A stretch of DNA of 6,768 nucleotides from Candidatus Atribacteria bacterium (GTDB taxonomy: Bacteria; Atribacterota; JALVIU01): NCBI GenBank assembly GCA_027028665.1, contig JALVIU010000400.1, positions 1 through 6,768 on the forward strand, read 5' to 3'. Of this stretch, positions 1,682 to 5,763 are shown in pieces. The notes under the pieces were generated by a model, which saw only the letters and a list, made by a program, of their open reading frames with translations, made no database searches and had not been told where the DNA came from. Each line of letters begins with the position of its first letter. Position 1 is the first letter of the stretch. The translations under genes and the position numbers were made by a program.

Positions 1682-1710
1682 TTGACATAAAAGGCTTAAT
1701 TTGATATGAT
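1682..1710 (+). promoter_or_regulatory. Strong SigA promoter for the parvulin gene
   Basis: A perfect -35 (TTGACA, 1682-1687), a 17-nt spacer and TATGAT (1705-1710) with upstream TG at 1702-1703 form an extended -10 promoter. The expected start point is near 1717, giving a leader of about 40 nt to ATG 1756. An inverted pair GATTTATC (1664-1671) / GATAAATC (1708-1715) flanks the promoter, and a direct repeat TGCTTGA (1659-1665, 1679-1685) straddles the -35 two helical turns apart. Either could be a regulator site. Confidence 0.85.
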
Positions 1711-1755
1711 AAATCCGATTAAATAAAAAATTAGCACCGAAAGGAGTAGTGAGTT

Positions 1756-3282
1756 ATGTTTACCTGGTTAAGAAAAACTATGAAATATTGGCTTATATTT
1801 ATCTTACTTGCCTTTGTTGTAACTATTTATTATGGTTATGGAAGTTACAAGAGAAATCAGGCAAAGAGGGCTTATGCAGCCATTGTTAATGGAAAGGCAA
1901 TTACCTATGATGCATGGAATGACGCATTTAGAAATGCACTTTCTCGATATGATAGTAAAGTGATAAATAGCCTTGATGATAAGACTATTGCTATTATTAA
2001 AAAGAATATACTGGATCAGTTGATAGAAAATGAGCTCTTATATGAATATGCAAAGAAAAAAGTTAAGGTTTCATCTGCAGAGATAAATGCAGAATACCAA
2101 AAGATAAAAAAGAGTTTCCCTTCTGAAGATGCTTTTAAGAATTTTTTATACAGACAGAGACTTACTATAACAGATATTAAGAATTATATAAGGAGAGAGC
2201 TTGTTATCCAAAAGTTTATAGCCTCCTTAGAAGAAAAAGAGAAAGTAGATCCAAAAGAGGTAAAGGAATTTTATGATAAAGCGAAAGACCTTTTATTTAC
2301 ACAACCTGAAAGGGTTCATGTAATGCATATCTTAGTAAAGACAAAGGAAGAAGCAGATGAGATTGAAAAAGAGCTAAAAAATGGAGCTGATTTTGCAAAA
2401 CTCGCAGAGGAAAAATCCATTGACCCGAGTGCAAAGAAGAATAAAGGCGATCTTGGATTTATATATAGGGGACAAACAGTGCCTGAATTTGAAAAACAGG
2501 CATTCTCTATGGAACCAGGAGATATTTCTCCTCCTATTAAGACTCAGTATGGATACCATATTATAAAGGTATTGGAGAAATCCCCTAAGACCGTAAAGAG
2601 TTTTGATGAGGTGAAGGACCAGATAGAGCTTGAATTAAAGAGAGAAAAGGCATTGAAAGAGCTTGACAAGATAAAGGCGGAGTTGAAGAAAAAGGCAAAA
2701 ATAGAGATATATGCAGCAGAGTATAAACAGGCAGAGGCATACGAAAAGGAGGCAAAAAAGCCGGAACTTTCTACTACTTTAGGGCCTGCAGAAAAGGCAA
2801 CAGCAATCAGTACACCATCTGTCAATCCAACTACTGCTCCTACTCAGACTCAAAGCCCAGCGGCCACCGAGGCACCGACAGCTACTAATACGCCAACTGT
2901 TACGGAGGCTCCAACAGCAACTAATACACCAACAGAAACATCAACACCTACAGAAGTAGCTACGGCAACCAATGCCCCTGCAAAAGCTCCAACTGTAGCT
3001 CCAACTGTAGCGCCAACCGAGGCTCCAACAGTTACCAGTACGCCAACTGCTACAGAGGCACCAACTGAGACACCAACGACCACACAAGCTCCAGCGGCTC
3101 AAGAAACACCTACAGCTACTAATACCCCAATGCCTACAGAAACACCGACACAAGCTCCAACAGCTACGGAGGCACCAACTGTAGCACCAACCGAGGCTCC
3201 AACTGCTACAGAGGCTCCAACTGAGACGCCGACCGAAGTCCCAACAAAGGTGCCTACAGAAACACCTACTCAGACACCATAG
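1756..3282 (+). CDS. Membrane-anchored parvulin-type peptidyl-prolyl isomerase (PrsA/SurA-like) with Thr/Pro-rich tail
   Basis: This 508-residue foldase is predicted to work outside the cytoplasmic membrane, helping secreted or envelope proteins fold by cis/trans isomerisation of X-Pro bonds. Residues 1-10 are basic and 11-27 form one hydrophobic helix. There is no lipobox (the protein has no cysteine) and no clear signal-peptidase site, so it probably stays anchored by its N terminus, unlike lipoprotein PrsA. Residues 38-160 match a SurA/PrsA N-terminal helical chaperone domain (VNGKAIT at 44-50; LIENELLYEYAKK around 89-101). The rotamase domain spans about 185-275, with VHVMHILVKT at 187-196, GDLGFI at 231-236 and a GYHIIKV end at 266-272. 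A charged helical segment (about 280-340) leads into a tail, from about 352 to the end, built almost only of Thr, Pro, Ala, Glu and Val. AAGGAG at 1741-1746 is 9 nt from ATG. The gene is monocistronic, between its own promoter and a terminator. Function is confident; the tail's role is unknown. Confidence 0.9.
   Translation: MFTWLRKTMKYWLIFILLAFVVTIYYGYGSYKRNQAKRAYAAIVNGKAITYDAWNDAFRNALSRYDSKVINSLDDKTIAIIKKNILDQLIENELLYEYAKKKVKVSSAEINAEYQKIKKSFPSEDAFKNFLYRQRLTITDIKNYIRRELVIQKFIASLEEKEKVDPKEVKEFYDKAKDLLFTQPERVHVMHILVKTKEEADEIEKELKNGADFAKLAEEKSIDPSAKKNKGDLGFIYRGQTVPEFEKQAFSMEPGDISPPIKTQYGYHIIKVLEKSPKTVKSFDEVKDQIELELKREKALKELDKIKAELKKKAKIEIYAAEYKQAEAYEKEAKKPELSTTLGPAEKATAISTPSVNPTTAPTQTQSPAATEAPTATNTPTVTEAPTATNTPTETSTPTEVATATNAPAKAPTVAPTVAPTEAPTVTSTPTATEAPTETPTTTQAPAAQETPTATNTPMPTETPTQAPTATEAPTVAPTEAPTATEAPTETPTEVPTKVPTETPTQTP
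2809..3279 (+). repeat. Thr/Pro/Ala/Glu low-complexity repeat coding region
   Basis: The last roughly 157 codons of the foldase gene encode loosely repeated modules such as TEAPTATNTPT, APTVAPTEAPT and TETPTQAPT, with Pro about every third or fourth residue, usually preceded or followed by Thr. Synonymous codons vary freely between copies (ACA/ACT/ACG, GCT/GCA/GCG, CCA/CCG/CCT), so the pattern is conserved more at protein than DNA level. Local G+C is visibly higher than in neighbouring genes. Such sequences are typically extended, disordered and often O-glycosylated in exported Gram-positive proteins. Long open frames on the opposite strand here are by-products of the repeat. Confidence 0.9.
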
Positions 3283-3295
3283 ATTGCAAATATAG

Positions 3296-3327
3296 AAAAG
3301 TCCCACACATATGTGTGGGACTTTTTT
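3296..3327 (+). terminator. Intrinsic terminator of the parvulin gene
   Basis: A perfect 15-bp inverted repeat, 3296-3310 against 3311-3325 (AAAAGTCCCACACAT and its complement), forms a stem closed by a few central bases. It runs directly into a T6 tract at 3322-3327. It begins 13 nt after the stop codon. The other strand also has a T-rich flank (TTTTCTATATTT), but no leftward gene ends there. Confidence 0.95.
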
Positions 3328-3342
3328 GTTTATATATCCCTA

Positions 3343-3379: not shown

Positions 3380-3862
3380 ATGGAACTAAAGCTTGTAGAA
3401 ATTGAAAAACCTGAAGAGATTAATTTTATCCTTGGGCATTCTCATTTTATAAAAACCGTAGAGGACTTGTACGAGGCCATAGTAGGAAGTATGCCTGGTA
3501 TAAAGTTTGGACTCGCCTTTTGTGAGGCATCTGATCCTTATCTTATAAGATATGCAGGCACAGATGATGAGATGATTCAACTTGCTATAAAGAATGCACA
3601 AAAGATAGGGGCTGGACATTCATTCATAGTTTTTTTGAAAAATGCCTTCCCAATCAATGTATTAAATGCTATAAAAAATGTTCAAGAAGTATGCCGTATA
3701 TTTACTGCAACGGCAAATCCCACAGAGGTAATCGTTGCAGAGACAGAGAAGGGCAGAGGTATACTTGGAGTTATAGATGGTGGATCCCCCAAGGGGATAG
3801 AAGGGGATGATGATGTGAAACACAGAAAAGAGCTCTTACGTACCTTTGGCTATAAGCTTTAA
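3380..3862 (+). CDS. Adenosine-specific kinase-like protein (DUF355 family)
   Basis: The 160-residue product matches the full length of the DUF355 (PF04008) family, a small cytosolic fold common in archaea and found in some thermophilic bacteria. Family-typical blocks are [12 protein letters not shown] (22-33), [13 protein letters not shown] (39-51), the glycine-flanked GAGHSF (77-82), [12 protein letters not shown] (90-101), [14 protein letters not shown] (109-122) and [10 protein letters not shown] (125-134), ending in RTFGYKL. Database entries call members 'adenosine-specific kinase' after structural work on an archaeal homologue; the physiological reaction is not firmly established, and no classical P-loop is visible. 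If correct, it would phosphorylate adenosine in nucleoside salvage. The gene has a strong ribosome site and its own promoter after the upstream terminator. Its TAA overlaps the stop codon of the convergent gene, so the two stops share TTAA. Confidence 0.85.
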
Positions 3863-4755
3863 AATTTCTTAATATCTGGTTGGAAGCCAACAGCATCTAA
3901 AAACTTATTATAATCATCAAAGTTAAAGTCGTACACTTTTTTATTCATAAGGGCAAGTGCTATAGCCTCTATTACATTTGTGCCAAAGCTTCTTCCATTT
4001 ATACGGGGAGTAGTAGTAATAAGATAGCTTACTCCCCGTTGTTTTACTTCCTCTACATTTTCAGTGGTTGTGGTATTTGTAATTAATATCTTACCTGATA
4101 GGTCTTTGGGCATGTATCTTCTGATAAATAGAAAATCCCCTGCAATTATATCTGCTTTTTTAAATAGCCATTTATACTTCGGAACATTTTCTTCTTCCTT
4201 TTTTCCTGTGGGATACAAAAGATCCATAGGGAGGGCAGTTATTATGGGGAGCATGGGATATGAAAGTATATCTATAGTTTTTAATGAATGAAATACTATG
4301 GGAAGACCCAGACCAAAGACAAGGTCGCCTATGAGAAGCTTTGCCCCTACCTGGGCAAGTGCCTCTGTCATTCCATATCTATCCACAGATGTAGGAATAA
4401 GGGCAGTTTTATCCTTTAGAGGTATAACATCTTTATTTATATAATGAATCACTCTTCTTTCCAGTGTTTCCCTCATACCTGCTCCATCGGCAATAGGTGT
4501 CTTGGTAACCCCTTTTACCATCTTTTTCATATCTCTAAACCAATAAACCCTACCCTTTATGTAGAAAAACAGGCTTGCACCTCCTAAACCAAATGCATTT
4601 ACCTTTCCATCATTTTCTAAGAATATCTGGCGGGCCTTTTCTTTGTCTCCATCTGTGCCTATTCTTTTTACATTTACCTTTTCGCCGAGAAGCTCTATAT
4701 CAAATTCATAATCTCTTTTAGATGTGCCAAGACTTACACTTATTACTCTTTTCAT
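3859..4755 (-). CDS. Protein of the family annotated as 'quinate 5-dehydrogenase' (function unproven)
   Basis: This 298-residue soluble protein resembles Firmicute and Chloroflexi entries labelled quinate 5-dehydrogenase, recalled from memory rather than searched. Recognisable blocks are [10 protein letters not shown] (6-15), RIGTDGD (31-37), [11 protein letters not shown] (54-64) before GRVYWFRD (68-75), [16 protein letters not shown] (86-101), [11 protein letters not shown] (123-133), [12 protein letters not shown] (142-153), [10 protein letters not shown] (225-234) and [20 protein letters not shown] (245-264). The glycine-rich GLGG and the TPIADGAG region could bind a nucleotide or phosphate. 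It lacks the obvious shikimate/quinate dehydrogenase (AroE) N-terminal SKSP-type substrate motif, so the enzymatic name is doubtful. It is translated from AAGGAGT (4761-4767), which overlaps the TAA of the upstream regulator gene. The two genes are 10 nt apart and surely co-transcribed and translationally coupled. The stop codon overlaps that of the convergent DUF355 gene by 4 bp. Confidence 0.65.
4003..4046. terminator. Candidate intragenic hairpin terminator for rightward transcription
   Basis: ACGGGGAGTA (4003-4012) and TACTCCCCGT (4030-4039) form a perfect 10-bp G+C-rich stem around a 17-nt loop, followed on the plus strand by TGTTTTAC. It lies inside the leftward 'quinate dehydrogenase' gene, 141 nt beyond the DUF355 stop. 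No terminator exists at the overlapping convergent junction, so this may be where DUF355 transcripts end. The U-tract is poor, and the pairing could instead be a by-product of codons for QRGVSYL and TTTPRI. Confidence 0.35.
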
Positions 4756-4765
4756 CTTTTACTCC

Positions 4766-5293
4766 TTACGCCTTTTGTATATTTTCTATAATATTTTTAA
4801 GCAGTTCAGGATCCACGTATTTACTCTCTTTTATGGGAGATTCTCCCAGTGAAATACCTATTACTTCCCTTTTAAATATATCCTCTACTAGTCTGACCCT
4901 TTTATCTGATCCCAAAAATATAATAGCATCAAAACTTGCAAGGGATGCAATAAGATCCACTATTTCATTAAAAAGACGTGCCCCACTTTTTTTCAATATA
5001 AATACCTCTCTCTCCCTCTGTGTAAGAAGCAATGTAAAGTCGACCCCTTTTTCTTTTGCTATCCTTTCAAGTTCTTCTTTATTTTTTACAGGAAACCCTA
5101 TAACAGCTATTCTTTTGCCCTTTCTTATCTCTCCAAGCTTTTCGAGCCTTGATATAAATGAGCGTTCTATGTCAAGCTCTTTGGAGATCTCTTCTTGAGT
5201 TAATCCCTTTACCCTCATTTGTAAAATTTTGTCAATGGCATTTAATATTTTGTTTCTACTTATTAATTTTTTCCCTATTCTTAAAAAGTCCAT
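4766..5293 (-). CDS. XRE-like helix-turn-helix transcriptional regulator with C-terminal alpha/beta domain
   Basis: This 175-residue protein has an N-terminal helix-turn-helix at about residues 15-52; GLTQEEISKELDIERSFISRLEK (30-52) has the sigma/XRE-type spacing with a recognition helix around ERSFISRLEK. Residues 60-150 look like an alternating beta/alpha sensor domain: RIAVIGFPV (61-69), VDFTLLLTQRERE (84-96), FDAIIFLGSDKRVR (121-134) and VIGISLGES (144-152). The last strand echoes SVSLGTS at the N terminus of the neighbouring enzyme, perhaps by chance. It is the first gene of a two-gene operon and probably senses a ligand related to the neighbour's substrate or product, possibly with autoregulation through palindromes over its start site. 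GAGGG at 5299-5303 is 5 nt from ATG 5293. No family name is certain, and the ligand is unknown. Confidence 0.8.
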   Translation of the reverse strand: MDFLRIGKKLISRNKILNAIDKILQMRVKGLTQEEISKELDIERSFISRLEKLGEIRKGKRIAVIGFPVKNKEELERIAKEKGVDFTLLLTQREREVFILKKSGARLFNEIVDLIASLASFDAIIFLGSDKRVRLVEDIFKREVIGISLGESPIKESKYVDPELLKNIIENIQKA

Positions 5294-5361: not shown

Positions 5362-5550
5362 GGGAAAATACTATATGAGCAATGTTAATTTAACTTCCAA
5401 TTAAGAAAACAATCAAGATAAGATAAAGACCTAAAAAGGGAAAATAGAGAGGTTTGGGAGATAACCTCCAATTGCCGTTTCAGCTCGTATGCTTATTTGA
5501 TTCCCAATATTTCCCCTCTCTGATAGGTAGAAGACTTACCCCCCAGATTC
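5362..5550. other. Intergenic stretch without a recognisable gene
   Basis: No credible coding region is visible on either strand. A small inverted repeat, GAGGTT (5449-5454) / AACCTC (5463-5468) with an 8-nt loop, is the only local structure. From about 5505 the sequence becomes pyrimidine-rich and leads into the hairpin repeat copies. Confidence 0.4.
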
Positions 5551-5630
5551 CCCCTTTCTCATTAGGGAAAGGGTTTGCTCCCACATATCTTCCTTCCCTG
5601 GTAGAGAAGGGATTAAGGGGAAGGTGATGG
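5551..5630. repeat. Two further diverged hairpin repeat copies
   Basis: CCCTTTC (5552-5558) pairs perfectly with GAAAGGG (5567-5573) around an 8-nt loop. A second copy pairs CCTTC (5592-5596) with GAAGG (5606-5610). The second is followed by GGATTAAGGGGAAGGTGATGG-like sequence, which parallels GAATTAAAGGGACTTGGAGG after the 367-390 hairpin in the first intergenic region, in the same orientation. Pyrimidine-rich fragments at about 5641-5659 may be a third decayed copy. A 64-codon leftward frame across this area has no family resemblance and is not called. Confidence 0.5.
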
Positions 5631-5763
5631 TTCCCCACACTCCAGCCCTTCCTTTCCCTTGGTATATTTTCTTGTAAGCTCTATTTTTCCATAAAGAGGT
5701 CCTCTCCTTTTTATCAGGTTCAACTGAAAATCAACCCTACAAAGCCAAGCCCCCACTATAATA

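Follow-up and report, generated by a model that had tools for sequence, protein, structure and literature searches.

Sequence comparison indicates that the Thr/Pro-rich tail at the C-terminus of the parvulin-type foldase analyzed here is a roughly 3.5-fold expansion, in one lineage, of a short tail that the protein already possessed, since every complete same-phylum orthologue that was read carries a short tail at the same place. The window, i.e. the whole stretch of DNA analyzed, is an entire contig of 6768 b (C400) from a genome of 1.79 Mb in 413 contigs that is about 90% complete. The foldase ORF is complete (508 aa), and the tail forms its 3' end up to the stop codon. The features of the gene are as follows.

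1682..1710, + strand: promoter-like site of the sigma-70 type (TTGACA-N17-TATGAT, with TG before the second hexamer) just 5' of the gene; 11/12 consensus matches, a consensus match only
1739..1746, + strand: ribosome-binding site GAAAGGAG, 9 nt 5' of the ATG, by direct reading of the sequence
1756..3282, + strand: foldase gene encoding an N-terminal transmembrane (TM) segment, a SurA_N-like domain, a parvulin domain and a T/P-rich tail; ORF, Pfam, and orthologues in 42/49 same-phylum genomes
1786..1842, + strand: single N-terminal transmembrane anchor, aa ~11-29, without cysteine or lipobox; hydropathy, kept in orthologues
1756..2217, + strand: SurA_N_3 domain, aa 1-154; Pfam 83.2 bits (cut-off 27.2)
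2302..2580, + strand: parvulin (PpiC-type) rotamase domain, aa 183-275, with His191, Asp232 and His268; Rotamase 89.5 bits (cut-off 21.7), Rotamase_2 92.7 bits (27), Rotamase_3 87.4 bits, active-site motifs and PrsA/SurA structure matches
2581..2754, + strand: C-terminal helical segment of the chaperone domain, aa 276-333; orthologue alignment, and a helix at 283-333 in a low-confidence single-sequence model
2809..3279, + strand: T/P/A/E-rich tail, aa 352-508, in strict dipeptide register and with a free C-terminus; composition, shuffle test and a model without secondary structure
3292..3329, + strand: intrinsic terminator with a 17-bp stem and T-run, directly 3' of the stop codon; folding energy -25.7 kcal/mol, z -5.6

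As far as can be read from the DNA, the foldase gene is a separate transcription unit. A frameshift or assembly artefact is unlikely because the frame is open and the gene is flanked by the promoter-like site, the ribosome-binding site and the terminator. A contaminant contig was ruled out as well: GC content of the window minus the tail is 0.355 vs. about 0.36 for the readable contigs, and the tetranucleotide correlation is 0.98. Two ORFs that overlap the tail on the minus strand (2850-3083 and 2941-3306) were rejected as by-products of the repeats, and no Rfam elements were found within the window. Elsewhere in the window, 3859-4755 (minus strand) encodes a 298-aa protein found in 45/49 genomes of the same phylum (identity about 44-51%) and in 1/11 others. 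It has no match in Pfam or NCBIfam, may resemble proteins annotated as quinate 5-dehydrogenase, and its gene adjoins that of a 175-aa HTH protein (4766-5293, minus strand). The non-coding stretches 280-430 and 5440-5680 contain GC-richer repeat-like runs of the CCTTCG/CAAGGG type; no second copy of 280-420 was found elsewhere in the genome.

By fold the protein is a parvulin-type peptidyl-prolyl isomerase, its Rotamase match lying above the curated cut-off, and structures of PrsA, SurA and related foldases match it by sequence. The catalytic motifs are intact (HILV at 191, GDLG at 231 and GYHII at 266), and prolyl isomerase activity is predicted. A single rotamase stretch and a single TM anchor were found. 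Hydropathy peaks at 1.77 (19-residue window) at aa 12 and nowhere exceeds 0.54 beyond aa 40; neither a second TM segment nor an LPXTG-like or PEP-CTERM-like end was found in the foldase, and a lipobox is absent because the protein has no cysteine at all. No conserved signal-peptidase site was seen in the alignment of the foldase with its orthologues. The genome encodes a BamA-type Omp85 protein (178.9 bits), which points to a diderm cell. An N-terminal anchor without lipobox, taken together with this diderm sign, suggests a topology like that of PpiD, with the anchor in the inner membrane and the chaperone part probably in the periplasm; the order along the protein is TM segment, SurA_N domain, parvulin domain, tail and stop. 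The whole genome gave one rotamase match and most relatives have at least two parvulins, but a second one may be hidden here because contigs shorter than about 3 kb appear as N.

Escherichia coli PpiD has a single N-terminal TM anchor, a SurA_N_3 domain and a parvulin domain on the periplasmic side (PMC9643414), all of which the window foldase appears to share. PpiD has further periplasmic domains and a parvulin domain reported to be inactive, whereas the window foldase has one parvulin domain with intact motifs and the T/P tail. It is PpiD-like in topology but was not filed as PpiD because it scores 139.4 bits against the NCBIfam PpiD equivalog, below the cut-off of 493. It likewise falls below the equivalog cut-offs for PrsA (113 bits vs. 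343), whose lipobox cysteine is absent, and for SurA (54 bits vs. 394), which is soluble and has two parvulin domains, neither of which holds for this protein.

According to the earlier note, known PrsA and SurA proteins stop soon after the rotamase or a helical domain; for PrsA-type proteins this does not hold in general. In streptococcal PrsA a C-terminal disordered region is common and in some species extended, its function being unknown (PMC11853100), and enterococcal PpiC has an acidic S/T-rich C-terminal arm (residues 304-336) that is crystallographically invisible (PMC12524980). These proteins resemble the window foldase in having an NC chaperone domain and a parvulin domain followed by a disordered, S/T-rich C-terminal arm, but they are monoderm lipoproteins whose arms are of the S/T/D/E type, whereas the window foldase is a TM-anchored protein, apparently of a diderm, with a 157-aa tail of Thr, Pro, Ala and Glu. 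Since disordered C-terminal tails have been published for both, this kind of tail is already known; new are its length, a chemistry based on Thr and Pro, and its occurrence on a TM-anchored foldase of an apparent diderm.

That a tail dominated by Thr, Pro, Ala and Glu follows the parvulin domain was correctly noted before. Its 157 residues comprise 54 Thr, 32 Pro, 28 Ala, 15 Glu, 9 Val, 6 Gln, 5 Ser, 5 Asn, 2 Lys and 1 Met. All 32 Pro stand at even offsets and 52 of the 54 Thr at odd offsets, a Thr register reached in 0 of 20,000 shuffles of the tail, and 29 of the 31 intervals between successive Pro measure 4 or 6 residues. Where an even position does not hold Pro, the residue there is E, A, V, Q, N, S, T or K and never L, R or H. 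Because the Pro codons are one step away from codons for L, R and H, the absence of these three suggests that hydrophilic or small, non-basic residues have been selected or kept at these positions. The single Thr register would fit growth by multiples of 6 nt from a Thr-Pro repeat, and selection for alternation is possible too. The codon scrambling noticed previously is confirmed: at none of the lags examined, the longest being 48 residues, do synonymous codons agree in excess (p > 0.05 throughout). Tandem Repeats Finder (TRF) reported decayed 12-bp and 42-bp units in the tail DNA, and in selected cases identical peptides separated by 52-58 residues have 8 of 11-12 codons in common. The repeat expansion is old rather than absent, because synonymous codons keep no periodic memory and the repeat units are present only in decayed form; there is no sign of recent DNA slippage. 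A single-sequence AlphaFold2 model, poor as a whole (mean pLDDT 47.3), lacks secondary structure beyond residue 333, where pLDDT is about 29-38; the tail is probably disordered, also in vivo.

The orthologue count of 42/49 genomes was made by hand from matches to the N-terminal part of the protein, and the best 30 have 36-45% identity to it; the relatives compared are phylum-level, none closer. All 27 complete same-phylum orthologues that were read have a terminal low-complexity tail in the corresponding position, with a length of 17-55 aa by a measure that gives 186 aa for the window protein. The same-phylum orthologues L003-L031 have the same domain order and anchor as the window foldase, but their tails, which vary freely in sequence and length, are mostly acidic, S/E/D-rich and dominated by S/T/E/D/P/A, and one clade lacks the catalytic His residues. 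The longest same-phylum orthologue frame measures 447 aa from stop to stop vs. 509 for the window protein. Among the matches listed from 242 genomes, with at most six candidates scored per genome, none runs into the tail in open frame. Outside the phylum, 20 related parvulins end 1-66 aa after the core, with one exception that has a 183-aa helical/TPR-like extension. In the tree the window protein stands alone on a long branch between two main clades, a placement made unsure by that branch. The earlier note had also reasoned that relatives lacking the tail in an otherwise identical context would speak against a functional stalk; the long tail is indeed missing in relatives throughout the phylum, but the context is not shared, none of the window's neighbours lying within 1.5 kb of the orthologues at 29 loci.

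Net charge of the window tail is -13 over 186 aa vs. -13 over about 47 aa in relatives with an intact isomerase site, and since it is less acidic per residue it may serve another job than theirs. Charge complementarity between core and tail was ruled out, because both charges rise together across the orthologues (rho 0.82). In one orthologue clade (L013, L015, L018, L020, L022, L023, L025 and L027-L031; families f4 and f7) the parvulin catalytic motifs are lost (HILV to RMTF, QMTF or QIVL; GYHII to TYVIY and the like) and the protein is kept, so chaperoning without isomerase activity seems to be enough there. One relative also encodes a 134-aa lipoprotein (L036, G040:C162) that consists mostly of T/P repeats in TPTCTTCPTQ units, in which cysteines recur at regular intervals.

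About 376 kb of readable sequence was sampled, and other exported proteins of the genome have the same texture. Long Thr-Pro segments occur in lipoproteins on contigs C67, C145 and C214, and shorter ones in a secretin (C221) and a lipoprotein (C304); C67 and C145 were chosen because they match the tail and C214 because it has a Wzy_C gene, which means that no frequency follows from them. The linkers of the C67, C145 and C214 lipoproteins share the Thr-x dipeptide texture of the foldase tail, but they connect the lipid anchor to a folded domain, or one domain to another, and can therefore act as spacers, whereas the foldase tail is terminal. Because of this common texture, we regard the tail as made of the material that this envelope ordinarily uses for spacers, here in an unusual place. 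On C67 (G000, L083 3-1284, minus strand) the T/P-rich lipoprotein gene is directly downstream of a family-2 glycosyltransferase gene.

The reading that we prefer, with about an even chance of being right, is that the tail is a generic disordered bristle, acting as a solubility aid or spacer, that grew by old repeat expansion. The ancestor would have had the short, mostly acidic tail of Ser, Thr, Glu and Pro that is common to the orthologues of the phylum; old expansions of Thr-x units of 6n nucleotides would have lengthened it to the 157-residue Thr/Pro bristle, which would then have been kept hydrophilic. On a foldase of PpiD topology, with its SurA_N/parvulin chaperone cradle in a diderm periplasm, the free and disordered tail may provide excluded volume and negative charge round the cradle, so that clients and neighbouring proteins do not aggregate there. 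Such a generic role would be hard to tell from no function.

The main rival is neutral repeat expansion, in which a short tail simply tolerated the growth of a Thr-Pro repeat and no function specific to the long version is under selection; we consider this possible, if rather doubtful. Restriction of the long tail to one lineage, the freedom of orthologue tails in sequence and length, and the persistence of decayed 12-bp and 42-bp units all agree with it, but slippage has not been recent, the two-residue register never slips, and the residues are limited to hydrophilic or small ones (no L, R or H) over 157 codons without a stop or frameshift.

It is unlikely that the tail is instead a brush whose Thr residues are O-glycosylated after export to yield a protease-resistant glycan bristle. 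Thr beside Pro or Ala with few charges does resemble bacterial O-glycosylation sites, and the mannosyltransferase MtPMT prefers S/T in Pro-rich peptides (PMC12331936), and enzymes of the PMT type would fit such a texture, but no PF02366 (PMT-family mannosyltransferase) match was found in this genome, about 90% complete and with its small contigs unreadable. PglL-type enzymes of Burkholderia, Neisseria and Acinetobacter act on disordered Ala/Pro-rich regions, almost exclusively on Ser (PMC8423747, PMC12645811); the tail is A/P-rich and probably disordered, but it has 5 Ser vs. 54 Thr. The candidate enzymes encoded in the genome are one PMT_2 protein and two Wzy_C proteins, the latter generic and without a match to PglL-specific models. 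One of the two Wzy_C genes, which encodes an O-antigen-ligase-like Wzy_C/TPR membrane protein, adjoins a T/P-rich lipoprotein gene that lies 37 bp upstream on the same strand (G000:C214, L086 1584-3134 and 3172-4020, minus strand). The two products are a possible substrate-enzyme pair for O-glycosylation, but the C214 assembly is doubtful because the lipoprotein ORF spans a short N run and repeats itself across it. More improbable still is the specific version in which an undescribed general system glycosylates the Thr residues of the tail and also decorates the T/P-rich lipoproteins of the genome.

The two remaining readings, both raised by the earlier note, have very little probability. A fully extended chain measures about 0.31 nm per residue, so 157 residues could span about 49 nm, more than the periplasm, but a tether or stalk bridging to the peptidoglycan, S-layer or outer membrane to position the foldase fares badly: a stalk must sit between anchor and domain, whereas here the foldase sits between the membrane anchor and a tail that is a free end lacking an anchor, sorting signal or binding domain, so that the tail cannot hold the foldase off the membrane or place it beyond the wall. 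An intramolecular substrate, with the 32 X-Pro bonds beside a parvulin domain that keeps its catalytic residues occupying its site and tuning its activity, is disfavoured as a conserved role because Pro makes up about 2% of the tail in the 16 orthologues with an intact isomerase site and about 16% in the 11 that have lost it, a contrast between two clades that is phylogenetically confounded.

Returning to the generic bristle, the long tail is an extreme confined to a single lineage and does not by itself alter any concept. Extracytoplasmic parvulin foldases with a disordered C-terminal tail are found in bacteria as distant from one another as streptococci, enterococci and this phylum, and the last of these offers a natural series of the same foldase with tails of 17 to 186 residues and an isomerase site that is either intact or lost, which makes the function of the tail testable by tail swaps.
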